NCBI RefSeq assembly: GCF_002879855.1
Contig: NZ_PNYB01000001.1
Span: 62,001 to 126,000 of the forward strand
Reading direction: 5' to 3'
DNA: 64,000 bases
Source: Trinickia soli
GTDB taxonomy: Bacteria; Pseudomonadota; Gammaproteobacteria; Burkholderiales; Burkholderiaceae
In this document: piece after piece, positions 5,866-63,032 of the stretch
Numbering within the stretch: the first letter of the stretch is position 1
How the letters are laid out: every line of letters begins with the position of its first letter
Notes under the pieces: model-generated
The model's database searches: none
The model's input: only the letters and a program-made list of their open reading frames with translations
What the model was told of the DNA's origin: nothing
Made by a program: the position numbers and the translations under genes

Positions 5866-6175
5866 AAGTACCAGGGCGCCGAGTACGTCACCGGACTGTT
5901 TGTCGATGATCCGAACGCGGAATCGATTCACTACATAGCGGTCGATTCGAGCGACCGCTAAGATTCGGGAAAGCGCTGAGGCCCACGAAATTGACCACCG
6001 GTTGCCCGCACTGTCCGTGGTCAAAGCGGGATTCTCTACGGACGTTACGTTTAACGCGCAGCGGCCTTATTCGTGGAATGGCCGCGGCGTGGATATTGAG
6101 AATTACACGCTCACGGCCGAGGCCAGTCCGAAGTGTCTGGATTGCGGCAAGTCCGTTCGGTCGAACTTCAGCTAG
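5866..6175 (+). pseudogene. Remnant of an unidentified accessory gene (frameshifted)
   Basis: Two coding-like pieces lie in different frames. The first (from 5866) reads KYQGAEYVTGLFVDDPNAES and stops near 5960. The second (about 5939-6175) reads RESAEAHEIDHRLPAL and ends with a Cys pair (KCLDCGKSV) before TAG. They look like one small gene with a frameshift. I do not recognise the family. The stop is followed at once by an AGGAAAAC box, like the genes of the 15-21 kb array, which suggests a common origin. Confidence 0.4.
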
Positions 6176-6208
6176 GAAAACGTCGACGAAGAAACCGCAA
6201 GGGTGAAA

Positions 6209-14242: not shown

Positions 14243-15169
14243 GTGAATCCTGCAAATCCTGACGAGGTGTGGATGGGTTCGAAGACGCCGGTGCCACAGG
14301 GAGATTTTTTCCGTCAACCGCTGCGCGAGCAGATCAACTTGAAGCATCCGTTGATTGGCCTTGCCGATCTGATCGACTGGGATCGGTTGAGCACGGCGAT
14401 GAGCGCGAGCTTTGTGTCGCCCCGCGGGCGACCGGCAACCTCGCCGCGTTTGATTGCAGGGCTGCTGTACTTGCAGCACGCGTTCAATCTGTCGGACGAG
14501 GAGGTCGTTTGGCAATGGCTTGAGAACCCGTACTGGCAAGTGTTCACCGGCGAGACGTTCTTACAGACGCAGCCGCCGATCGATCCGTCGAGCCTGACGC
14601 GCTGGCGCAAGCGGCTAGGCGAGGCTGGTGTGGAAGAACTGCTGGCCGAGACCATCGAGGCGGCCAAACGAGGGAACGTCATCAAGACGTCGAGCCTGAA
14701 GCGGGTAATCGTCGATACGACGGTCATGGAGAAGGCGTTTGCGCATCCCACCGATTCGCGCTTGCTCGAACGTTGCAGAGAACATTTGGTGAAGGCTGCT
14801 GCGCGGCATGGCCTGAAGCTGCGGCAGAACTACAACCGTGAAGCGCCACGACTGGCGGGCCGGATTGGCCGCTACGCGCATGCGAAGCAGTACAAGCGGA
14901 TGAAGAAAGCGTTGCGCACTTTGCGTTCGCGATGTACGCGCTGCATGTCGGATCGAGGCGATTGGCTGGCAGAGGCTTTTTTTCGAGCCGTTTTCGACGG
15001 TGACTACGAGTACTGCGGCCCTTGGGACGAGGTGCGTCGGCGCCACGGCTGTTTCAAAGTGGCGAATGCCTACGAATGGGCTAGAGGCACCAACGAGATT
15101 ATCGGCATCTTGAATACGTTGCCCAGGCCATGCTCGAGAGTCGAGTTGATCGAGGCCTTCGGGCTGTAA
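14243..15169 (+). pseudogene. Truncated IS5-family transposase fused to the 3' end of an unrelated gene
   Basis: From a GTG at 14243, about 230 residues match IS5-family transposases: PLIGLADLIDWDRL, SPRLIAGLLYLQHAFNLSDE, PPIDPSSLTRWRKRLGEAG and the first DDE Asp in VIVDTTVMEKAF. Near 14935 the transposase ends abruptly. The same frame continues into unrelated sequence (DWLAEAFFRAVFDGDYEYCG to ELIEAFGL) until TAA at 15167. The second and third catalytic acidic residues are missing, so it is inactive. The tail looks like the 3' end of an array gene cut by the IS, since a GGAAAAC box follows its stop. Confidence 0.75.
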
Positions 15170-15187
15170 ATGGTACGTCGGAAAACT

Positions 15188-15625
15188 ATGGCAAGGTCGA
15201 TCGAAGATGTATTCATGGTGCTGACCGCCAACTCGGTCGAAGAGATTGTCCGCCGAGGAGGCGTCGCGTATTGGATCGCGGACGCTCAGCGCGTGGGCGG
15301 ATGCCGGTATGTGATTGCCGCGCGCAACCGCAACGATCGCCACGAGGAGCCCGGGGGAGAGGAAGAGCACGGTGCAGCGTTCTTCATCGGGGAAATCGGG
15401 AAGGGCATTTACACGCGCGACGAGCCTGGGTACGAACGACGCATCATTGTCGGCGTGACGCGCTTCGCTAGAGTGGATATCCCGGGCGTTTGGGCGCCAC
15501 GTGGCAGTAATCCCGTGCGGTACGGTTCGATGAGCGAACTGCCCGTCGAACTCGATAGCCTCAGGTGGGTACCGTGGCCCCGCGCCCGCGCGGTTCGGGG
15601 TCTCGTCAAGGTAATAGAGCTCTGA
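15188..15625 (+). CDS. Hypothetical protein of the accessory array
   Basis: 145 residues beginning MARSIEDVFMVLTANSVEEI; the middle is rich in charged residues (RHEEPGGEEEHG) and precedes a strand-rich half with FFIGEIGKGIYTRDEPGY. No family recognised. The ATG at 15188 lies directly after a CGGAAAAC box (15179-15186), whose GGA may serve as the ribosome-binding site; an ATG at 15170 is an alternative that begins right after the previous stop. Another GGAAAAC box (15638) follows its own stop codon. Confidence 0.55.
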   Translation: MARSIEDVFMVLTANSVEEIVRRGGVAYWIADAQRVGGCRYVIAARNRNDRHEEPGGEEEHGAAFFIGEIGKGIYTRDEPGYERRIIVGVTRFARVDIPGVWAPRGSNPVRYGSMSELPVELDSLRWVPWPRARAVRGLVKVIEL

Positions 15626-15660
15626 TCAAGGTTTCGCAGGAAAACCTCGCGTACCGACTT

Positions 15661-16023
15661 GTGGCGCGGCATGGCGTCACTACCACTCCTGCCGCGTATC
15701 GCGGGCTCGACCCTCATAGCCCTCTGCTTAGGGCTGGCGACGGCGAGCCATTCACGTTCACGCGGCGCGTCACTGGAAGCGGCGCGATCAGCTATTCATG
15801 CGAGTCCTTGACGGAGATTGTCCGGCGATTGCACCAGCAGGCAGGCATCGAAGGCGGTGACGCTTCGGCTGCCCGGCGCAGCTTTGCTGTCCAACTTCAC
15901 CGGCAAGGTCGGTCGCTGAAACTCATCCAGACGCTGATCGGCGTTTCTAGCCTGTCTGCCGTTAAAAACCTCATCGAGGCCGATCCGGTGCGGCTGGCAG
16001 CGATTGTGAGCGGGGTGATCTAG
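15661..16023 (+). CDS. Short tyrosine-recombinase-like protein (C-terminal domain only)
   Basis: 120 residues from GTG 15661. The C-terminal half, SLTEIVRRLHQQAG followed by SAARRSFAVQLHRQGRSLKL and IQTLIGVSSLSAVKNL, follows the pattern of the catalytic end of phage-type integrases: an R-R-S/T-F-A segment, then helix and LIG. The nucleophilic Tyr and the first active-site Arg box are not evident. It is a degenerate integrase piece or a small DNA-binding protein derived from one. It begins after a GGAAAAC box (15638) and sits before the FitAB pair. Confidence 0.45.
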   Translation: MARHGVTTTPAAYRGLDPHSPLLRAGDGEPFTFTRRVTGSGAISYSCESLTEIVRRLHQQAGIEGGDASAARRSFAVQLHRQGRSLKLIQTLIGVSSLSAVKNLIEADPVRLAAIVSGVI

Positions 16024-16118
16024 GCTGGCCTGCGGAGCGCGAAAGGCGCAGCCGTTTGGAGCCGTAACTTGTCAGGTTGGCACTCGCGCGCAGCGCGTGA
16101 TGGCGTGTCGCCTGAATT

Positions 16119-16166
16119 TGCTATCAATGCTTGCACTTCTCGCGCGGCATGCTATCATTGATAGCA
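16119..16166 (+). promoter_or_regulatory. Palindromic operator of the FitAB-type module
   Basis: The near-perfect palindrome GCTATC-ATT-GATAGC (16151-16165) lies 22 bp before the antitoxin start. Its right half, ATTGATAGCA, is the exact reverse complement of TGCTATCAAT at 16119-16128, so three half-sites are present. Autorepression by the RHH antitoxin with toxin as co-repressor is usual for this family. Confidence 0.7.
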
Positions 16167-16187
16167 ATTCGAATGTTGGGGTAAATC

Positions 16188-16421
16188 ATGGCAAATCTCC
16201 TGGTTAGAAATGTGGATGAGGGACTTGTCCAAAGCCTGCGCGAGCGGGCCGCAGCCCATGGGCGCAGCGCCGAAGCCGAGCATCGCGAGATTTTGGCAAA
16301 GGCGCTACGCGCTCCACAGCGCAAGACGTTCGCAGAAGTGTTGATGAGCATTCCGAACGTCGGAACTGATGCCGATTTTGCGCGCGTGGATGACGGTGAG
16401 GCAGCGAATGTATTTGGTTGA
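16188..16421 (+). CDS. FitA-like ribbon-helix-helix antitoxin
   Basis: 77 residues. The N-terminal RHH motif is MANLLVRNVDEGLVQSLRER followed by AAAHGRSAEAEHREIL, very close to the FitA/VapB pattern. The C-terminal third would wrap the toxin. The stop (16419-16421) overlaps the toxin start at 16408 by 14 bp. The palindromic operator lies just upstream. Confidence 0.9.
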   Translation: MANLLVRNVDEGLVQSLRERAAAHGRSAEAEHREILAKALRAPQRKTFAEVLMSIPNVGTDADFARVDDGEAANVFG

Positions 16422-16827
16422 TACCAACGTCATCAGCGAAATACGGAAGCGGGATCGAGCGGACAAGGGCGTAATGGCTTTCTTCCGCAAGGCGGCGCAG
16501 GATGATGCCGATCTGTACCTCTCGGTGGTAACGATTGGCGAACTGCGGCGCGGTGTGGAAATCATTCGTCATCGTGGCGACAAGCCCCAGGCAACGCGAC
16601 TTGAAAAATGGCTCGATGGCGTGCGTCGGGAGTTTGCTTCGAACGTTCTGGCGGTGGACGAGGAGATAGGGCAGCTATGGGGACGCCTGCGCGTCCCTCA
16701 TCCCGAACACTCGCTCGACAAGTTGATCGCGGCAACTGCGTTGATTCACGACCTGATTGTGGTGACGCGGAACGTCGATGATTTCGCTGGAACAGGTGCC
16801 CGCGTGCTGAACCCGTTCAAGGGGTAG
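16408..16827 (+). CDS. FitB/VapC-type PIN-domain toxin
   Basis: 139 residues with an intact PIN core: LVDTNVISEIRKR (first Asp), VVTIGELRRGVEII (Glu) and LDKLIAATALIHDL then VVTRNVDDF (C-terminal acidic residues). It is expected to be an RNase neutralised by the upstream RHH protein. The start at 16408 (MYLVDTN) begins the first strand exactly; an upstream ATG at 16369 lies inside the antitoxin frame. It is the only intact toxin-antitoxin pair in the window and may stabilise the accessory array. No GGAAAAC box follows it, unlike most of its downstream neighbours. Confidence 0.92.
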   Translation: MYLVDTNVISEIRKRDRADKGVMAFFRKAAQDDADLYLSVVTIGELRRGVEIIRHRGDKPQATRLEKWLDGVRREFASNVLAVDEEIGQLWGRLRVPHPEHSLDKLIAATALIHDLIVVTRNVDDFAGTGARVLNPFKG

Positions 16828-17003
16828 TGCCAGGACGGTATTGTCAAGTTGTTCGGTAGGCGCAGGAGCGAGGGCGAAGGGAGAAGGTAATGGATCGGCT
16901 TACGCGGGCATGCGGACGCACGAAGCCTTTTCCCAGGCCGCGAAGGCCTGTGCGCGTGCTTGGCGTTTGTGTTGCGCGTTGCCGTGGTAGCGGCAGCCCA
17001 TGA

Positions 17004-17198
17004 ACAGATTGGAAATCCGCTATTCCCGATTTGACGGTTGCCGATGCCATTCGACTCGCGATCAACGCGCTACGGGACGTTGCCGAGTCGCACAAGATGC
17101 CCTCGGGCATCGAGCTGGATAAGGCAACGGCCGAGCTGCACGCGAGCGCGGCCGATGTGCTGGATGAATCGCTCAAGCAGCTGCGCGGGCACGAATAG
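17004..17198 (+). pseudogene. 3' end of an unidentified accessory gene
   Basis: An open frame after TGA 17001 reads DWKSAIPDLTVADAIRLAIN and continues to LDESLKQLRGHE, stopping at 17196-17198. It is amphipathic-helical and coding-like but lacks a good start codon. I take it as the remaining 3' part of a gene. TAGGAAAAG follows its stop, a variant of the array box. Bases 16828-17003 show no gene. Confidence 0.4.
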
Positions 17199-17208
17199 GA
17201 AAAGCCAG

Positions 17209-17892
17209 GTGACGCCGACAATACGTTGCTTCGATCCGAACGCGCCCCTCTATACGAAAGGTGGCCGACCGCTTCCTGATACGGAGGACCGGACATTTAG
17301 CGCCTTCGTATTGCGCGCGTTGCGTGACGCGCGCTCAAAGAGCGAGGTGCCCCCAGCATGCCCGCACTGTGGGAGTCGTGAGACCATTCTCGCTAGCCGC
17401 CCGCACACGCGCCTGCCCCGTCCGACGTTCCTGTGCCGCGACTGTTGGCGACGCTATAACCGTCTCACAGGCACGCCGCTCGCACGTCTGCGCCACGAGA
17501 CGAAGCTACCGGCCTTTGTGAGGCTGCTTTCTCAACAGATTTCGTATGCGAAAGCGGCCGACAGGTTGGGGGTCGACTACACTGCGATCGCGAACTGGAC
17601 GGCCAAGTTTCGAGCCTGGTTTCGCGAACTCGACCCGACGTGCGAGTGGGAAAGGCGCGTCCGCCTGGGCCTGAAACCTCGCGCGCTGGGGGCATGCCCG
17701 AACTGCACAGCTCAAGCGCTGCGTTTTTACGGCTTTGCTTCCGAGTCTGGCGACCGGCGCTTAAGCTGCGTCGCCTGTGGCAGCGTTTTTTCGCTCAGCA
17801 AACTGGGCGGTGAACTCCAGTGCGCGGTGAGCTACGATCCGGCGGTCGCATCTGGCCGACTCGACTTGCCGCGCATGCAGCGCGTTGATTGA
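17209..17892 (+). CDS. DUF746 protein with zinc-ribbon and HTH
   Basis: 227 residues from GTG 17209. Two Cys4-type zinc ribbons: CPHCG (about residue 48) with CRDC about 27 residues later, and CPNC (about 165) with CVAC about 26 residues later. Between them lies a helix-turn-helix-like stretch, ISYAKAADRLGVDYTAIANW. This is the DUF746 family, which resembles the N-terminal part of transposases but lacks a DDE catalytic core. It is a likely DNA-binding accessory protein. The start follows a GGAAAAG box by 5 nt; a CGGAAAAC box lies 1 nt after the stop. Confidence 0.8.
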   Translation: MTPTIRCFDPNAPLYTKGGRPLPDTEDRTFSAFVLRALRDARSKSEVPPACPHCGSRETILASRPHTRLPRPTFLCRDCWRRYNRLTGTPLARLRHETKLPAFVRLLSQQISYAKAADRLGVDYTAIANWTAKFRAWFRELDPTCEWERRVRLGLKPRALGACPNCTAQALRFYGFASESGDRRLSCVACGSVFSLSKLGGELQCAVSYDPAVASGRLDLPRMQRVD

Positions 17893-17915
17893 TCGGAAAA
17901 CGACGGGAAGGGAAT

Positions 17916-18335
17916 ATGAAGCGAGATTGGGACTTACTGCGAAAGCAGCTGACGGACATAGAAGAAGGCCGGGACGTGCTCGCGGATATCCCAGACGCAC
18001 CGAAATGGACAGACGACCTGACGTGGGAAGCCTACGATGATCTCGCGAAAGATCAAAGGGCTATCGAAGAGCGAATTGCCGGGCACTTGGAACTGCTCAT
18101 CGACAGTGGCTACGTGGAAGGCCCGCAAGTACTCCGAGGTGCCGACAATCACTTTGCGTACGGCTCGTCTGCGCCGCGCCTCACTATGGCTGGCCACGAT
18201 CTGCTCGATACCATGCGATCCACCACAATTTGGGAATCGATCAAATCGACCGCTCGGACAAAGGGCATAGAGCTGACGTTCGACGCTATCAAGGCACTCG
18301 CTGGATACGCTTTGAAGCACGCGTTGGGCGCATAG
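17916..18335 (+). CDS. DUF2513 family protein
   Basis: 139 residues. MKRDWDLLRKQLTDIEEG at the N-terminus and the central segment HLELLIDSGYVEGPQVLRG then LTMAGHDLLDTMRS match DUF2513, a winged-helix-like family common on prophages and islands; its role is unknown. The start has GGGAAGGGA directly upstream. The stop codon is part of TAGGAAAAC. Confidence 0.85.
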   Translation: MKRDWDLLRKQLTDIEEGRDVLADIPDAPKWTDDLTWEAYDDLAKDQRAIEERIAGHLELLIDSGYVEGPQVLRGADNHFAYGSSAPRLTMAGHDLLDTMRSTTIWESIKSTARTKGIELTFDAIKALAGYALKHALGA

Positions 18336-18384
18336 GAAAACGGGAAAAAAGCAGGGCAGATGCCATTACACATCGGGGATAAAA

Positions 18385-18819
18385 ATGGCTTGGGGAATAT
18401 TTTGGCGGGTCTGGCTCAGCGAATTTTGTGCGTCGCTGGCATTGATGGCACTTTTCCTGGTAACGCCGTTGAAGCCCGTGTTGTATGCGGGCCGGTGGAC
18501 GCTCTGGCATCCAACCATCGTGTTCGCCTGGTTCGCGCTGCTTTTGTTCGCGAGCTTGCTGCGCGGCGGTAACGGGCTGCTGTACCTGGCATGGGGACGT
18601 TTGCTTGACAGGCCGGAATCTTTTTGGAGACGACTCAACGCTTGGACCGGGGGGCTCTACGTTGCGCTCGCGATAGCGAATATCGCTGTAGCCCACGCAG
18701 TTTCGTTCCGCATCTGGCTGCATCTGAAAAATTTCGGACCGCTCCTAATCCTGCTTGGTTTTTCGGTTTGGGCTGCTTGCCACCTTACCAACAACGGCCG
18801 AGCCACCGCGGTCGCTTGA
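18385..18819 (+). CDS. Hypothetical four-helix inner-membrane protein
   Basis: 144 residues with four predicted transmembrane helices (about 9-28, 43-60, 85-107 and 115-133; for example FCASLALMALFLVTPL and GPLLILLGFSVWAACHL). No family recognised. The ATG at 18385 follows GGGGAT with good spacing. An ATG at 18361 in another frame has no coding support. A CGGAAAAC box lies 5 nt after the stop. Confidence 0.65.
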   Translation: MAWGIFWRVWLSEFCASLALMALFLVTPLKPVLYAGRWTLWHPTIVFAWFALLLFASLLRGGNGLLYLAWGRLLDRPESFWRRLNAWTGGLYVALAIANIAVAHAVSFRIWLHLKNFGPLLILLGFSVWAACHLTNNGRATAVA

Positions 18820-18841
18820 TACAACGGAAAACGCGGGAAAG

Positions 18842-18937
18842 ATGGCCGGTTTGACGCACGTTTTGATGTTGATGAGTTCTCTGGGCGCTGCTCAAATTGC
18901 AGAGCAACAACCAATCTTACGAGGAGCGTCAAAATGA
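18842..18937 (+). CDS. Mini-protein, 31 residues
   Basis: The frame MAGLTHVLMLMSSLGAAQIA continues to RGASK. It starts 9 nt after a CGGAAAAC box, with GGGAAAG as ribosome-binding site, and its TGA overlaps the ATG of the next mini-gene (ATGA). This coupling is the main reason to take it seriously. It may act as a leader peptide for translation of the next gene. Confidence 0.4.
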   Translation: MAGLTHVLMLMSSLGAAQIAEQQPILRGASK

Positions 18938-19050
18938 TGAGCAAATTCGACAAGCTTTTCTGGGCTGGCATGTTCGTCGCGCTCATAGCGCTGGCGATCA
19001 TGGCGAATACGCGGTGTCCTGAGTGGCTGAGTGCGGCGCTGTTTGGTTAG
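18934..19050 (+). CDS. Single-helix membrane mini-protein, 38 residues
   Basis: MMSKFDKLFWAGMFVALIAL continues AIMANTRCPEWLSAALFG. One transmembrane helix spans about residues 9-25. GAGGAG lies 8 nt before the ATG and the start overlaps the stop of the upstream mini-gene. CGGAGAAT, a possible degenerate array box, follows directly after its TAG. The family is unknown; it is too short for homology claims. Confidence 0.55.
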   Translation: MMSKFDKLFWAGMFVALIALAIMANTRCPEWLSAALFG

Positions 19051-19233
19051 CGGAGAATATCTCCAACAGGAATCGCCGGCCTCGCCAGTGCAAGGGAAAA
19101 TGCGATGAAGACGATTCGATGGATGCTCGCGACGCACAGTTCGCGCTCGAGCAAGCGTGATGGCGTGTGATTAAGGACAGCACGGAAAACCGCTCGCTTA
19201 TGTCCCTTCAGCGTCGCGGATACAACAAGGCAG

Positions 19234-19503
19234 GTGCTATCACCCAGGAGGGACGCGAAGCGCTCGTGGGAGGTCTGGGCAACAAGGTGGCGAACGACGC
19301 AACATGCATCGGATGCGGATGCGGATGCGGATGCACGGATAGCCACGCTTGCCACGACGAGCTCGAGGGCGGACCAGTGCCACTGGCACCGCGTCGACCG
19401 CGGCGCGCGTATCGGTGTCCGCAGTTCATGCAGGGAATTGGAGAGTGCCTGGGACGCCGGCGATCGCGCGATGCGGGTGCCGCTCGAGCAGGCTGGCCGG
19501 TAA
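19234..19503 (+). CDS. Hypothetical protein with Asp-Ala repeat
   Basis: 89 residues from GTG 19234. The frame was chosen over a longer one that reads through to 19895 because its stop (TAA, 19501) is followed after 3 nt by the array box TGGAAAAC. The coding pattern RVDRGARIGVRSSCRELESA is helix-like. A GGATGC tandem repeat at about 19312-19336 encodes four Asp-Ala units. The start is uncertain: residues before the repeat may belong to a different remnant. No family recognised. Confidence 0.4.
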   Translation: MLSPRRDAKRSWEVWATRWRTTQHASDADADADARIATLATTSSRADQCHWHRVDRGARIGVRSSCRELESAWDAGDRAMRVPLEQAGR

Positions 19504-19532
19504 CAGTGGAAAACGAAAAACGGGAGCTTTTG

Positions 19533-19895
19533 ATGTTCACACTGATTGCGAAAGTCGCCTATAAAGGCGAGCTGCTCGAAGTGATGGAAACGGAAGTGTC
19601 GGAAACCGAGCGTAAGCGGTTGATCGCCGCGGCGCTCAGCGACGATCGCGCCTTGCCGAACAACGGTCAGGAAATGGAAGACGGCGAGGTCTGGATCGAC
19701 CTGCACGACAAAGACGGCGATATCGTGTCCGATGAGCCGGTTTGCTTCCATAAGGCCGATGCAGCTGACGCCTTGGTGCTGCACTTCGGCGCGCCGGCGA
19801 GCGTGGCAACGGATTGCCTTTCGAAACGCAACGTCGAGGCGCACTACGCAGACCATCGAGCGGGCGTTCGCTTCGCTGTCAGCGGCTCCCGTTAA
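19533..19895 (+). CDS. Hypothetical acidic protein of the array
   Basis: 120 residues beginning MFTLIAKVAYKGELLEVMET. It is acidic, with EVSETERKRLIAAALSDD and EDGEVWIDLHDKDGDI. No family recognised; a small alpha/beta fold is likely. The ATG at 19533 is preceded by GGGAG at 8 nt and by a TGGAAAAC box. The stop is followed after 2 nt by CGGAAAAC, which leads directly into the next gene. Confidence 0.6.
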   Translation: MFTLIAKVAYKGELLEVMETEVSETERKRLIAAALSDDRALPNNGQEMEDGEVWIDLHDKDGDIVSDEPVCFHKADAADALVLHFGAPASVATDCLSKRNVEAHYADHRAGVRFAVSGSR

Positions 19896-19910
19896 ATCGG
19901 AAAACGGACG

Positions 19911-20333
19911 ATGATCTACTTCACAACGCAGATCGGCCCCGAGTGGACCAAGGTTCTTCTCGGGCAGCAAATCGAGGCGCAGGTGGATGGTTGGATTGCA
20001 GAGGAGGCCGACCGTCTGAGCGACGCACAGCAGGCACAGGCACGCAGGGCGCTCGATGACTTCCACGCAGGCCTGAGCAGACAGTGGATCACGATTCAGT
20101 CCACGGACGACAAGGTGGCCGGCGTGTTTCGCTACATGCTCTCGTTCCTCGTCGAATTCACCGAGCCAGGTCGAAACGGAGACGAGCACCGCGAGGCTCT
20201 GATCCGCGACGCCTACGGGCCGGGTGCCGTTGATCAAAACGTCCTCGCGAAGCTGCGCGAGGAAGGCGAGCGCCTCCACCCTGCGCTTCATGGCCTCGCG
20301 CATGTCATCGAGCAGGTCGCGCCAGGCCAATAA
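19911..20333 (+). CDS. Hypothetical helical protein of the array
   Basis: 140 residues, mostly helical, with an acidic middle (WIAEEADRLSDAQQAQARRA) and LSFLVEFTEPGRNGDEHREA. No signal peptide or membrane segment. The ATG at 19911 follows CGGAAAACGGAC, so the box and ribosome-binding region touch. A further box lies 5 nt after its stop. Family unknown. Confidence 0.6.
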   Translation: MIYFTTQIGPEWTKVLLGQQIEAQVDGWIAEEADRLSDAQQAQARRALDDFHAGLSRQWITIQSTDDKVAGVFRYMLSFLVEFTEPGRNGDEHREALIRDAYGPGAVDQNVLAKLREEGERLHPALHGLAHVIEQVAPGQ

Positions 20334-20351
20334 CGGGACGGAAAACAAGGT

Positions 20352-20909
20352 ATGAAGATCAATCTTGCTATGGTGGTCGTGGTCGTCGCAGTTTTTGTCA
20401 TACTTGCCGCACTGGCTCGGCTGAAGGCCAATGGCCGCACCGGGAGCTACAAGCGTCGAAACCTCCTGACTGACAACGAGCTGGAGTTTTTCGACAGGTT
20501 GGTCAAGGCGCTGCCTGCGCACTACATTTTCCCCCAGGTCGCCATGTCGGCTCTGCTGGAAGCATCGAGCGGCGATAAAAAGATCGCACATAGTGATCGC
20601 CTACGGATCGCGCAACAGCGTGTTGATTATGTCATCTGCGATTCGCGATGCAAGGTGGTTGCTGTCGTGGAGTTGGACGACAGGACACATTCACGCACAA
20701 AGGACAACGTACGCGATAGTCGGCTTGAAAAAGCTGGAATCCGGACCGTCCGCTTCCAGTCGCGGAACAAGCCGACTATCGATCTCATCCGCACCTCAGT
20801 TTTGCACGCAGACCGTGAGAGCGAACAGGGATGTGGGATCGGCACGAGCGATGTGAAGCCGGGGGCGTTGGTCGAGATCGCGTCGGTGCCGTCGAAATCG
20901 GCCAACTAA
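20352..20909 (+). CDS. DUF2726 family membrane-anchored nuclease-like protein
   Basis: 185 residues. One N-terminal transmembrane helix (about 5-22, LAMVVVVVAVFVILAAL) precedes a DUF2726 domain: LLTDNELEFFDRLVKALP, QQRVDYVICDSR, VVAVVELDDRTH and DNVRDSRLEKAGI. The D-x-V-I and V-E-L-D-D acidic residues resemble the core of PD-(D/E)XK nucleases, to which DUF2726 is thought to be related; activity is not shown. AAGG precedes the ATG, itself after a CGGAAAAC box. Confidence 0.85.
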   Translation: MKINLAMVVVVVAVFVILAALARLKANGRTGSYKRRNLLTDNELEFFDRLVKALPAHYIFPQVAMSALLEASSGDKKIAHSDRLRIAQQRVDYVICDSRCKVVAVVELDDRTHSRTKDNVRDSRLEKAGIRTVRFQSRNKPTIDLIRTSVLHADRESEQGCGIGTSDVKPGALVEIASVPSKSAN

Positions 20910-20971
20910 ACGATTCGGAAAACAGGCGCGCGAGCGCTCCGCAGCGGCCGGTAGCCGATGAAAACGAAAGC

Positions 20972-21250
20972 ATGCCGACCTACAAAGAATTACTAGCCAA
21001 GCAACGAGAACTTGACGCTCAGATCGCAGCGGCGAGGAATGAGGAGCGGAGTCACGCAATCGCGACGATTCGCGAACTGATGCAGCAATTTGACATTACC
21101 GCGGGCGACCTCGCTGCGAAGCGAGACGCGTATAAGCGGGGCGCTTCGCAGGCGAAGTACCGCGATCCCGTGAGCGGCGCAACGTGGAGCGGGATGGGCC
21201 GCGAACCCCGGTGGATCGCAGGCAAAGATCGCACCGCCTTCGCCATCTGA
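20972..21250 (+). CDS. H-NS family nucleoid protein
   Basis: 92 residues. A coiled-coil oligomerisation region (LLAKQRELDAQIAAARNEER, about 6-45) is followed by the C-terminal AT-hook-like DNA-binding domain, YRDPVSGATWSGMGREPRWI, in which T-W-S-G-x-G-R-x-P-x-W is the H-NS/BpH1 signature. The start at 20972 gives the standard length; an upstream in-frame ATG overlaps DUF2726. It probably silences horizontally acquired DNA, perhaps the array itself. A box precedes it at 20916. Confidence 0.9.
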   Translation: MPTYKELLAKQRELDAQIAAARNEERSHAIATIRELMQQFDITAGDLAAKRDAYKRGASQAKYRDPVSGATWSGMGREPRWIAGKDRTAFAI

Positions 21251-21273
21251 AAGACCGGAAAACCGAAAGCGTA

Positions 21274-21871: not shown

Positions 21872-22180
21872 ATGGTGAAAGGACGAATTCCCGACGAAGA
21901 GGCTCGCGAGCGCCTGATCTTGTGGATTCGACGTCGCATGGATGAGTTCGGCATTACGCCGCAAGCCATCGCTGATTCCATCCAGCAGGATCTGGAGAAC
22001 CGCCCCGTCTTTCGCGATGCTCGCGGCAACGAGTGGAACGGCCAAGGCGAGATGCCGACGTGGCTACGCGCCGCGAAAAATGCCGGGGTGAGCCCCGACT
22101 TCTTTCGCATCGATCGAGCGCCATCCCCAACGGCCGAGGACGGCGAGATTGATCCTCGCCAGCTCGATCTTTTCTTTTAA
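21872..22180 (+). CDS. Atypical H-NS family protein
   Basis: 102 residues. The DNA-binding domain is in the middle to C-terminal part: FRDARGNEWNGQGEMPTWLR then AAKNAGVSPDFFRID, the H-NS signature (W-N-G-x-G-x-x-P-x-W-L) followed by a helix. The N-terminal part (ARERLILWIRRRMDEFGITP) is short and lacks the usual long coiled coil. The tail is acidic. With the normal H-NS gene two places upstream, this gives two silencer-type proteins in one array. Confidence 0.8.
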   Translation: MVKGRIPDEEARERLILWIRRRMDEFGITPQAIADSIQQDLENRPVFRDARGNEWNGQGEMPTWLRAAKNAGVSPDFFRIDRAPSPTAEDGEIDPRQLDLFF

Positions 22181-61569: not shown

Positions 61570-63032
61570 AACGCGATCGCACTCGTCGATTCGGCGTCGT
61601 CGGCGGGCTCGGGCCGCTTGCAGGCGCCGATGTGTTGTTCAAGCTGATGAAAGCGGCGTCCACGCCCGCGCAGGCCGATCCGTTCGATGTCATCTTCGAA
61701 CAGCATGCTTGGCGCGGCGTCGGTCCGATCGACGTCGCGACCATCGAGCGCAAGCTGTATATCTTCGATCTGATTCGGGATTTCGAACAACGCGGCGTGA
61801 CGACCGTCGTGCTCCCGTGCTTTCTCAGTCATACGTTCATCGACGAACTGAAGGCGAATTCGCGGGTGGAGATCGTGGATCTCGTAGAAGGCGTGCGTCG
61901 GAGCGTCGCGAAGCAGTTTCCGGCCGCGAGGAGAATCGGGCTGTTGGCTTGCGCGTATACGCGCGAGCAAGGTCTGTTCGAACGGTATTTTGCCGCACCA
62001 CAGTTCGAGGCCGTTCACGCTCGCGCAATCGACGGCATCGATTGCGTGTCAGAGGCGGTCTACGGCGCTGACGGCATCCGAAACGGAAGCCTTGCGGGAC
62101 GCCCGGTCGAATTGCTGCGTCGGGCCTGCAACGATTTGATCGAGCAGGGCGTCGACGTGATCGTGTCGGGCGCGACCGAGATTGCACTCGTTATCGAGCA
62201 ACTGAGCGCGCTGGGCGTACCGGTCATCGATTCCAATCTGGCCTGTGCGCACTACGCTGCCGAAGCGGCGGGCGCAGCAGGGCGCGCTGCGATCAAGGTC
62301 GGCGTCGTCGGCGGCGTGGGACCCGCTGCGACAGTCGATTTTCTGCAAAAGGTCGTCCGCAACACGCCCGCGGCACGCGATCAGGATCACATCAAGTTGC
62401 TGGTCGAGCAGAATCCGCAAATCCCCGACCGTACCGAGCATCTGATCGCCAACGGGGCCGACCCCACGATTTCGCTCTATGCGACCTGCAAGAAGCTCGA
62501 ACAGGGCGATGCCGATTTGATCGCCATTCCGTGTAATACGGCGCACGCGTTCGTCGAGCGCATTCAGCCACGTCTCGGCATACCGATTGTCAATATGTTG
62601 ACGGTGACGGCCCGTCACCTGAGAGATGCCTATCCGGGGCTCCACGAAATCGGGCTGTTGGCCACGTCGGGCACGATCGAAAGCGGCGTCTATCGGGACG
62701 CACTCGCTGCACATGGCTTGCGTGAAGTCGTGCCGCCCGCGCATTTGCAAGCGCGCGTGATGGAAGCGATCTACGGCGAATGTGGCGTGAAGGCGGGGTA
62801 CACCGCCGGCCGGTGTCGGGAAGACATCGATGCGGCGATAGAAGGGCTGATCGAGGCCGGTGTCGAGGTGATCGTGCTCGGATGCACGGAATTGCCGCTG
62901 CTGCTTCCGGGAGGCATCTATACGAGCCGTACCGGCGTGAGCGTTGCACTGATCGACCCAACCGAAGTGCTGGCGCGGGAGTGCGTCGGGTATGCGATAT
63001 CCGGCGATCTTGCGACCTCCCTCATTGGATGA
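61566..63032 (+). CDS. Fused tandem Asp/Glu racemase-family protein
   Basis: 488 residues made of two racemase domains. Domain 1 (1-230): FGVVGGLGPLAGADVLFKLM, Cys85 in VVLPCFLSHTF, but SGATEIAL has Ala203 where the second catalytic Cys belongs. Domain 2 (243-488): VGVVGGVGPAATVDFLQKVV, with Cys323 in IAIPCNTAHAF and Cys440 in LGCTELPLLLP, a complete pair. Only domain 2 should racemise; domain 1 may be structural or hold another activity. It is coupled to the symporter, suggesting D-/L-aspartate or glutamate use. Confidence 0.9.
   Translation: MKRDRTRRFGVVGGLGPLAGADVLFKLMKAASTPAQADPFDVIFEQHAWRGVGPIDVATIERKLYIFDLIRDFEQRGVTTVVLPCFLSHTFIDELKANSRVEIVDLVEGVRRSVAKQFPAARRIGLLACAYTREQGLFERYFAAPQFEAVHARAIDGIDCVSEAVYGADGIRNGSLAGRPVELLRRACNDLIEQGVDVIVSGATEIALVIEQLSALGVPVIDSNLACAHYAAEAAGAAGRAAIKVGVVGGVGPAATVDFLQKVVRNTPAARDQDHIKLLVEQNPQIPDRTEHLIANGADPTISLYATCKKLEQGDADLIAIPCNTAHAFVERIQPRLGIPIVNMLTVTARHLRDAYPGLHEIGLLATSGTIESGVYRDALAAHGLREVVPPAHLQARVMEAIYGECGVKAGYTAGRCREDIDAAIEGLIEAGVEVIVLGCTELPLLLPGGIYTSRTGVSVALIDPTEVLARECVGYAISGDLATSLIG

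Follow-up and report, generated by a model that had tools for sequence, protein, structure and literature searches.

GGAAAA boxes behind stop codons as probable recombination cores of gene-cassette arrays linked to a small tyrosine integrase

Integrons are the textbook bacterial system for stockpiling and swapping single genes. In Acinetobacter plasmids, small gene modules are swapped between plasmids by Xer-type recombination at pdif sites, which are ~28 bp long and contain XerC and XerD arms. Phage genomes carry boundary sequences that are associated with gene starts and have no linked recombinase, and the FimB/FimE proteins are invertases acting at inverted repeats. ILEs at rulB and GInts are tyrosine-recombinase elements that are moved as whole islands with three recombinases, the ILEs residing in error-prone-polymerase genes, and the available portions of the reports describe no single-gene cassettes with a common box for them (PMC4542609, PMC5385486).

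The arrays analyzed here, one of which lies in a 64,000-nt stretch of the Trinickia soli genome (the window), resemble integrons (IntI/attI/attC) in that a tyrosine recombinase gene adjoins tandem, same-strand small genes, mostly of unknown function, which by sequence comparison are mobile as single-gene cassettes; as in integrons, arrays without a linked integrase also occur. They differ from integrons in that the integrase consists of the catalytic domain only, belongs to another clade and is encoded on the same strand as the array, in that a toxin-antitoxin pair follows the integrase in many loci, and in that the junction is a 6-7 bp box, where an attC-type pair was not found by a simple pattern. 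The exchange of small gene modules between plasmids recalls the pdif/Xer modules, but the site is 6 bp long and has no arms. As in phage boundary sequences, a short conserved sequence borders exchanged small genes, but here it is stop-associated and integrase-linked. The integrases are close to FimB/FimE in size (~200 aa, catalytic-domain size), but score only 20-27 bits against PRK09870/PRK09871 (NCBIfam, model lengths 198-200, cut-offs 221-222), which we take to be FimB/FimE-type small recombinases. Like ILEs and GInts, some of the arrays have a large recombinase nearby, and some adjoin imuA and polymerase genes. A literature search of titles and abstract openings, with bioRxiv and most subscription journals outside its scope, recognized no description of such a system, and an earlier one is possible.

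All boxes listed in a preliminary description of the window are present, namely eight CGGAAAAC, two AGGAAAAC, one TGGAAAAC and one AGGAAAAG, together with an orphan TAGGAAAAC (Table 1). The one-strand arrangement also held, with 11 GGAAAAC on the plus strand and none on the minus strand between 15,170 and 21,270. Over the whole window, GGAAAAC occurs 19 times, compared to a mean of 7.26 and a largest count of 14 in 100 dinucleotide shuffles. The chance rate originally assumed for an octamer, about one per 65 kb, was too low: CGGAAAAC was counted 278 times on both strands of the 6.1-Mb genome, or about once per 22 kb (reversed pattern, 176).

Table 1. Boxes and genes of the window's array, in window coordinates.
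Feature	Position	Strand	Remark
Orphan TAGGAAAAC	6173..6181	+	Behind a frame open from 5939
Box CGGAAAAC	15179..15186	+	Left edge of first cassette (gene 15188-15625)
Cassette gene, 145 aa	15188..15625	+	No Pfam match at E 0.01
Box AGGAAAAC	15638..15645	+	Separates cassette 15188-15625 from integrase remnant
C-terminal remnant, small tyrosine-recombinase-fold protein	15646..16023	+	Catalytically dead sister lineage
Antitoxin-like gene	16188..16421	+	Array head; blastn match H1 spans annotated DNA-binding protein gene beside VapC toxin
VapC-like toxin gene	16408..16827	+	Array head; from annotation of blastn match H1
Small cassette ORF, 55 aa	17031..17198	+	Cassette recurs in other arrays; three copies in G007
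Box AGGAAAAG at 17197 (GGAAAAG)	17198..17204	+	Overlaps TAG stop
Cassette gene	17209..17892	+	DUF746 and zinc-ribbon matches below Pfam cut-off
Box CGGAAAAC	17894..17901	+	
DUF2513 cassette gene	17916..18335	+	
Box AGGAAAAC	18334..18341	+	Overlaps TAG stop
Cassette gene, IspA-like (PF04279)	18385..18819	+	
Box CGGAAAAC	18825..18832	+	
Degenerate double-box-like site	19068..19101	+	AGGAAT ... GGAAAAT flanking GC-rich stretch; compared with intact double boxes
Box CGGAAAAC	19183..19190	+	No clear gene of its own upstream
Box TGGAAAAC	19507..19514	+	
Cassette gene	19533..19895	+	
Box CGGAAAAC	19898..19905	+	
Cassette gene	19911..20333	+	No Pfam match at E 0.01
Box CGGAAAAC	20339..20346	+	
DUF2726 cassette gene	20352..20909	+	
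Box CGGAAAAC	20916..20923	+	
H-NS-family cassette gene	20972..21250	+	
Box CGGAAAAC	21256..21263	+	
Last cassette-like gene, 192 aa	21274..21852	+	No Pfam match at E 0.01; exact box absent downstream

The boxes had been placed 0-12 nt after the upstream stop codon. For most window genes the box starts at -1 to +7 nt relative to the end of the stop; the exceptions are the box at 15638 (+13), that after 19050 (+44) and that at 19183, which has no clear upstream gene. Rather than being equally frequent after stops throughout the genome, GGAAAA was found within 25 nt of the stop in 10 of 12 array genes (one of them doubtful), a list picked by hand with no length limit that leaves out the integrase remnant, the toxin-antitoxin genes and gene 21872-22180, as against 2 of 336 control ORFs of at least 80 aa from 20 stretches of 20 kb (400 kb sampled) of the same genome; GGAAAAC was found after none of the 336. 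The doubtful gene, 19200-19505, has no stop codon at that end (an other-frame stop lies at 19501-19503), and frame 19167-19895 reads through the box at 19507; without this gene the score is 9 of 11. A mechanical choice of ORFs in the window placed a box after the stop in only 3 of 9 array ORFs, because longer opposite-strand frames displaced other genes, and in 1 of 57 ORFs outside the array, the sole match being the box at 15179. In 347 cassettes of related arrays, the median stop-to-box distance was 5 nt (quartiles 0-7, a spread bounded by design, since only stops within 35 nt of a box were counted), with the TAG stop overlapping the box in 84. The box-to-start distance had a median of 14 nt and quartiles of 5-181, with 3-7 nt as the commonest values, so that the box is tied to the stop and its distance to the next start varies, as had been proposed.

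The window's array is, on sequence comparison, one of many. Burkholderiales, Rhodocyclales and Pseudomonas contain related arrays, which lie downstream of a co-oriented gene for a small tyrosine integrase of 219-238 aa that comprises the catalytic domain only. Among genes downstream of the integrase, 140 of 492 had a post-stop box, compared with 3 of 733 genes upstream of it and 2 of 330 on the opposite strand; boxes are densest over the 4 kb that follow the integrase. Of 59 loci, a set without L064, 50 have one or more post-stop boxes behind the small integrase and nine have none at all, and enrichment was not found in four small groups. A toxin-antitoxin pair is located between the integrase and the first box in many loci; in several, the toxin gene is followed by the first box, and insertion at one fixed site was not seen. 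At the level of sequence, these counts demonstrate an enrichment of boxes after stops in arrays, and not in the controls examined, as well as the location of arrays downstream of the integrase family.

Comparison of related genomes for breakpoints revealed that single cassettes are gained, lost and permuted at the box. Homology blocks between arrays start and stop at a box far more often than expected; 70 of the 108 blocks have no end that coincides with a box in both loci. Whole cassettes common to two arrays formed 44 pairs, 66-100% identical inside, with unrelated flanks on both sides in 38. From the window, cassette 17895-18340 recurs in two B. ambifaria plasmids (86% identity) and cassette 19508-19904 in Paraburkholderia pBN3 (79%), each box to box and with unrelated flanks; 20918-21263 has a counterpart with 90% identity, likewise box to box, in a second genome of the window's genus. 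Homology to a Burkholderia ubonensis integrase gene starts at window position 15644, within the box at 15638..15645. In a natural empty/occupied site pair, the occupied site has a single cassette and a single box more than the empty one, and both in this pair and in a permutation of cassettes within one strain, one box is kept per junction. Fifteen adjacency rows had an exact GGAAAA at the junction in nine cases, a one-mismatch box in four, and neither in the stretch shown in two. The same 6 bp act as a breakpoint across several genera. Fixed gene order without conserved boxes was not encountered in related arrays, and two earlier suggestions, a cassette-joining site and a sequence that modular genes carry at their 3′ edge, find support here and amount to the same thing. 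Cassette mobility at the box is thereby demonstrated by comparison, and the cassettes appear to move among the plasmids and chromosomes of proteobacteria from soil, in what resembles a second, independent way to collect and swap genes. Two records of a B. vietnamiensis plasmid that were suspected to differ in length have the same gene distances, and the difference was not real.

A logo of 433 boxes, whose core is invariant by design because they were selected for the exact hexamer, showed only weak preferences outside the core (A/C at -1, T/A at -2, A at -3 and -7, and C as the seventh base), and extended recognition arms were rejected on this ground. To our knowledge, a 6-bp core without recognizable arms is unusual for a tyrosine recombinase. 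Double boxes enclose a GC-rich inverted repeat, and the two boxes themselves are direct repeats. GGAAA pairs 25-27 nt apart were found 22 times, compared with ~8 expected, and 19 of 55 distinct pairs spaced 22-38 nt contained a perfect stem of at least 5 bp. A folded attC-like site was also rejected, since most boxed junctions inspected have one box and paired boxes are direct, not inverted.

Four full-length small integrases matched the Phage_integrase family PF00589 (E 6.6e-22 to 1.8e-13), and the catalytic R-K-H-R-H-Y set is invariant in 20 members of the main lineage. The proteins have the tyrosine-recombinase fold, aligning from residue 1 onward with residues 100-237 of XerA (VIA-align, limited to the families on its list), and to the XerD model only from position 103 or later; an N-terminal core-binding domain, as in Xer and IntI, was not found in the 219-238 aa proteins. 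A sister lineage of array heads has lost the catalytic residues and still heads boxed arrays. By its sequence, what is left of the integrase in the window derives from this conserved, catalytically dead lineage. As the platform gene is broken, with the C-terminal piece of a dead relative left, the window's array is probably immobile unless served in trans. This genome contains a second integrase locus (C12, L021), also a remnant, beside which no array is evident.

Quite probably, the boxes act as recombination cores in a system of mobile gene cassettes, with the small tyrosine integrase encoded directly upstream on the same strand as the most likely enzyme, an assignment made by position. A cassette would be a unit of ~0.2-1 kb, usually with one small ORF, spanning from the base after one GGAAAA through the end of the next. 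The 6-bp core would be common to the junctions, the preceding base moving with the upstream cassette and the following base with the downstream one. With limits defined base by base, gain or loss would add or remove one cassette and one box and leave a single-box junction. The asymmetry of the core would make cassettes join in one orientation and thus account for the one-strand arrays. The small integrase would perform the exchange, presumably through circular intermediates and double-strand exchange at the core, and the toxin-antitoxin pair probably provides a promoter and guards the array against loss. Since the box often overlaps the stop (TAG/GAAAA) and is often spaced suitably for ribosome binding ahead of the next start, joined cassettes could be read as an operon, and the box may double as the ribosome-binding site for the next gene.

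A possible but unlikely alternative is that the boxes are real junctions at which another recombinase (a large GInt/ILE-type enzyme, Xer or a host factor) performs the exchange, the small protein only binding or regulating. Against the small integrase as the enzyme, one array with good boxes (L079) has no small integrase adjoining it in the neighborhood examined, three others (L077, L078, L080) have a large recombinase in its place, catalytically dead proteins head boxed arrays, and the plasmid of L010 carries only a dead-lineage protein. However, the main small-integrase lineage retains its catalytic residues, and relatives of three large array recombinases occur in just 18 of 67 loci, some of the matches short or distant, as against 50 of 59 loci with a box behind the small integrase; the large recombinase was rejected as the enzyme on this basis. 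Arrays without an integrase are explicable by action in trans or loss, as was proposed for integron cassette clusters that lack an integrase (PMC8618304).

We give little credence to the view that GGAAAA serves the translation of these small genes, as a Shine-Dalgarno-like or coupling element, and that homology blocks end there through survival of intact genes and recombination at short identities. The box contains GGA, and its commonest distances to the next start would suit such a role. Against this, the box lies at a more constant distance from the stop than from the start, is seldom seen behind other genes, both in the window's genome and upstream of the integrase, and serves as an identical 6-bp breakpoint in several genera; many junctions hold a second, separate GGAG-type site, and the double boxes around an inverted repeat carry GGAAAA as well. 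The earlier argument from stop anchoring holds, together with the breakpoints, against a plain Shine-Dalgarno as the whole explanation; ribosome binding is retained as a likely second role.

A decayed integron, with attC sites eroded to a short remnant, shares the layout of an integrase and tandem same-strand cassettes mostly of unknown function, but is highly improbable. The cassette integrases form one group in the tree and IntI another (support 99/82 and 100/99), the integrase is co-directional with the array, and the four full-length proteins scored 24-52 bits against TIGR02249 (cut-off 265) and 18-34 bits against NF011946 (cut-off 435), both integron integrase models. The window's remnant had no match to TIGR02249, and an IntI above cut-off was not found in its genome (best, 90.6 bits). 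The RYYYAAC...GTTRRRY pair, a simple consensus pattern, was found in 0 of 685 box windows, a test of little power because control windows likewise gave 0 of 685. A signal for mRNA processing or stability in long operons, which would suit one-strand arrays with a box at gene ends, is scarcely credible, since neither the breaks in homology nor the empty site nor the permutation at the box would be expected from it, and no finding requires it.

Returning to the integrase-linked cassette system, we lean, with less assurance, towards a second, IntI-independent cassette platform. A catalytic-domain-only recombinase would swap genes via a bare 6-bp GGAAAA that is both stop edge and ribosome-binding site, captured genes would be ready for expression behind the toxin-antitoxin promoter, and the dead sister would be a box-binding keeper or regulator. 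If this is true, gene-cassette capture arose more than once, by another enzyme lineage and a minimal site, and such a system would account for a stock of short, unknown genes that Burkholderiales, Rhodocyclales and pseudomonads carry on their plasmids and chromosomes. GGAAAA after a stop, downstream of a small integrase, provides a rule for finding and reading cassettes that puts the enzyme question within direct test, and the 6-bp core is of interest for how recombinases choose sites. The cassette pool appears to be largely unread biology, as 125 scanned proteins of 304 non-redundant ones matched only 25 Pfam families, all but one of them in a single protein; single proteins among the 125 match phage-defence models.

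The GGAAAA boxes, which usually lie just 3′ of a stop codon, are almost certainly the borders of cassettes, the small-gene units that run from box to box. An all-against-all comparison of the arrays gave 108 homology blocks inside the compared sequences, and block ends fell at a box in both loci 23 times on the left and 31 times on the right, compared with 0.32 expected for each from slid positions; both ends lay at boxes in 16 blocks. Scored one by one, 164 of 492 block ends were found at a box (9.2 expected). In the other 70 blocks, neither end coincides with a box in the two loci, which could reflect decay of genes, partial conservation, or imperfect boxes. Segments of 150–1500 bp between adjacent boxes in 68 arrays numbered 510; across different arrays, 44 pairs of them matched over at least 90% of both members. 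Identity in 38 pairs was 66–100% inside, versus 15–40% (unrelated) over the 60 nt outside each box, and the remaining six had a neighbor in common on one or both sides. One 261-bp cassette of B. ambifaria pBMC401 recurs in a B. anthina plasmid with 99.6% identity, and the DUF2513 cassette of the window occurs in two B. ambifaria plasmids with 86% identity.

Exchange events were also recognized. In B. glumae BGR1, cassettes ordered C1-C2-C3 on bglu_1p stand in the order C1-C3-C2 on bglu_4p (97–99.9% identity), with the blocks overlapping by 7–10 nt, which is the box; C2 occurs without C1 and C3 in B. vietnamiensis (97.4% identity). Two B. vietnamiensis plasmids whose flanks are 98% identical differ by the presence of a 669-bp cassette plus box; one box marks the empty site and two mark the occupied site. 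The reading of the box as a cassette-joining site, one of those offered in the preliminary description, is thus borne out by the breakpoints: homology blocks end at boxes, and a single cassette was gained or lost with one box. A scripted survey found overlaps of 5–14 nt between adjacent blocks in 14 of 15 adjacency rows, and a gap of 10 nt in one; such overlaps are too short for ordinary homologous recombination. The junctions contained an exact GGAAAA in nine rows and a one-mismatch form (GGCAAA or GGAAGA) in four, and neither was present in the stretch shown for the other two.

When close matches between cassettes are aligned, the base preceding GGAAAA varies with the upstream neighbor and that following it with the downstream one; the exchanged core, as judged from these alignments, is therefore GGAAAA. 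The 433 distinct post-stop boxes, gathered by exact hexamer, gave a logo with no arms and only weak preferences outside the hexamer. The 347 cassettes measured have a median length of 383 bp and a median ORF of 90 aa, and a TAG stop overlaps the box in 84 of them. Recurrent double boxes, 25–27 nt apart, flank a GC-rich GCCGGC-type inverted repeat, and may represent mini-cassettes, a terminator, or a more complete version of the site.

The window covers positions 62,001–126,000 of a contig of 514 kb, in a genome of 6.1 Mb. The boxes counted earlier in the 15.2–21.3 kb interval are all present, CGGAAAAC eight times, AGGAAAAC twice, and TGGAAAAC and AGGAAAAG once each, and all 11 GGAAAAC copies in the array region are on the + strand. 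GGAAAA lies within 25 nt of the stop in 10 of 12 array genes in a hand-made list, or 9 of 11 when a doubtful gene without a stop at the box end (19200–19505) is left out, and in 2 of 336 ORFs from 400 kb sampled in the same genome. Mechanically chosen window ORFs carried a post-stop box in 3/9 cases inside the array and 1/57 elsewhere. Pfam matches of the array products include DUF746, DUF2513, IspA-like, DUF2726, and H-NS-like families, and several have no match. The front of the integrase gene may have been lost through the transposase-like ORF, and the orphan TAGGAAAAC is perhaps a stranded cassette end; its region had no relatives among the compared loci at the threshold used.

Coordinates of array-associated features (L, compared loci; G, genomes; G000, the genome of the window)
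Feature	Locus	Position	Remark
C-terminal part of small tyrosine-recombinase-fold protein	window	15,646-16,023	upstream of array; sister subfamily
VapBC-like toxin-antitoxin pair	window	16,188-16,827	upstream of array; annotation of blastn match H1
Transposase-like ORF, judged by eye	window	14243-15169	ends just ahead of first box
55-aa cassette	window	17031-17198	three copies in one array, L104 (G007 contig 11, same genus)
Orphan TAGGAAAAC	window	5939-6181	range includes the short open frame that precedes it
Match to window	L042, Trinickia dinghuensis NZ_QRGA01000021.1	117,549-117,894	
Sister-subfamily protein	L010	6672-7331	
Sister-subfamily protein	L106	6444-7127	
Sister-subfamily protein	L123-L129		
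Sister-related remnant	L021, G000 contig 12	about 130764-131105	no evident array
Double boxes	L009	18302	
Double boxes	L012	14972, 16227	
Double boxes	L013	17113	
Double boxes	L077	9209, 9747	
Double boxes	others		
Large recombinase	L014	16614-18872	
Large recombinase	L018	17984-19537	
Large recombinase	L077	5633-7456	
Large recombinase	L078	3842-5668	
Second array	L017, Azonexus hydrophilus plasmid	16351-19500	upstream of integrase

A distant blastn search against plasmids matched single array genes, several matches stopping at boxes, and the same layout was found on plasmids of Burkholderia, Paraburkholderia, Pandoraea, Cupriavidus, Aromatoleum, and Azonexus: an integrase (219–238 aa in ten loci), in many a toxin-antitoxin pair, and then consecutive small genes on the same strand (over 20 in some plasmids), many of the junctions carrying GGAAAA. 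When an alignment of eight integrases was used to scan a single genome from each species, 50 more loci were obtained, some of them fragments, in Burkholderiaceae, Oxalobacteraceae, Comamonadaceae, Rhodocyclaceae, Pseudomonas, and Halomonadaceae. The 90 proteins encoded by the first two ORFs 3′ of the integrase included matches to MazE (15), PemK (11), PIN (7), HTH_3 (6), and PrlF (4), with 12 other families matched once or twice each.

Across 60 loci, GGAAAA lies within 25 nt past the stop in 140/492 downstream same-strand ORFs, 2/330 downstream opposite-strand ORFs, and 3/733 ORFs upstream of the integrase. On the + strand, its density per kb is 0.21–0.37 ahead of the integrase, 1.29 within 4 kb downstream of it, and 0.5–0.6 past 10 kb, while the − strand is steady at 0.17–0.37. 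Among hexamers that follow a stop, it takes one of the top two ranks in Burkholderia and its near relatives (60/146 genes), Cupriavidus/Rhodocyclales (28/101), Oxalobacteraceae (24/69), Pandoraea (8/40), and Pseudomonas (9/43); this top rank was not seen in four small groups (18, 4, 5, and 31 genes), and 9 of 59 loci lack a post-stop box. The predominant base 3′ of GGAAAA varies by lineage: Burkholderia has C, Cupriavidus and Rhodocyclales have G, Rugamonas has T, and Pandoraea has A, the last from few boxes.

The small integrase is probably the enzyme of cassette exchange. The integrases match Phage_integrase, score far under the thresholds set for the Xer and integron integrase models, to which they align only over the C-terminal catalytic part, and keep R, K, H, R, H, and Y invariant in 20 of 20 members picked for completeness. 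An AlphaFold model (mean pLDDT 83, falling towards the C-terminus) aligns, starting at residue one, to the XerA and Cre catalytic domains. When eight IntI and seven Xer-type references were placed in one tree with them, the 33 cassette integrases grouped together (99/82) and IntI formed a group of its own (100/99), the deeper order being unsure given long branches, including L010.

A second, sister subfamily (L010, L106, and L123–L129), with which the window remnant belongs, has the tyrosine-recombinase fold but no longer carries R1, K, the histidine of HxxR, or the tyrosine nucleophile, and heads the same kind of array as the active integrases. Its reading frame runs uninterrupted for about 219 aa in Burkholderia, Paraburkholderia, Massilia, Janthinobacterium, Pandoraea, and Trinickia, with the copy in L123 diverging at its end, and dN/dS values of 0.06–0.29 in the computed pairs (four saturated; pairs at ≤50% identity left out of the display) indicate purifying selection. 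Of four sister-lineage arrays inspected, L126 and L129 hold many boxes (13 and 15 on the + strand), L125 has six, and L128 has four. Three plasmids were searched with the active integrase, and that of L010 yielded the dead protein alone. This protein should not cut DNA by known chemistry, and its arrays would therefore be served in trans or frozen; it may bind the boxes and regulate. That catalytically dead proteins head boxed arrays is the main reason for presenting the small integrase as the probable, rather than the established, enzyme.

The system works in integron fashion, but its integrase, a defining integron feature, is not IntI; the test for attC sites had too little power to stand on its own. 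No description of such a cassette system was recognized in the open-access literature. We therefore regard the kind as new, with reserve for literature outside open access.

Five arrays (L010, L013, L079, L080, and L126) adjoin imuA, polymerase Y, and error-prone polymerase genes, four of them also an H-NS-family gene, and this neighborhood suggests a tie to the DNA damage response. Large recombinases of 500–770 aa lie near several array heads, with relatives in 18 of 67 loci examined. In the second L017 array, several gaps carry a different post-stop motif, about GCGTTACGA, possibly marking another cassette type.
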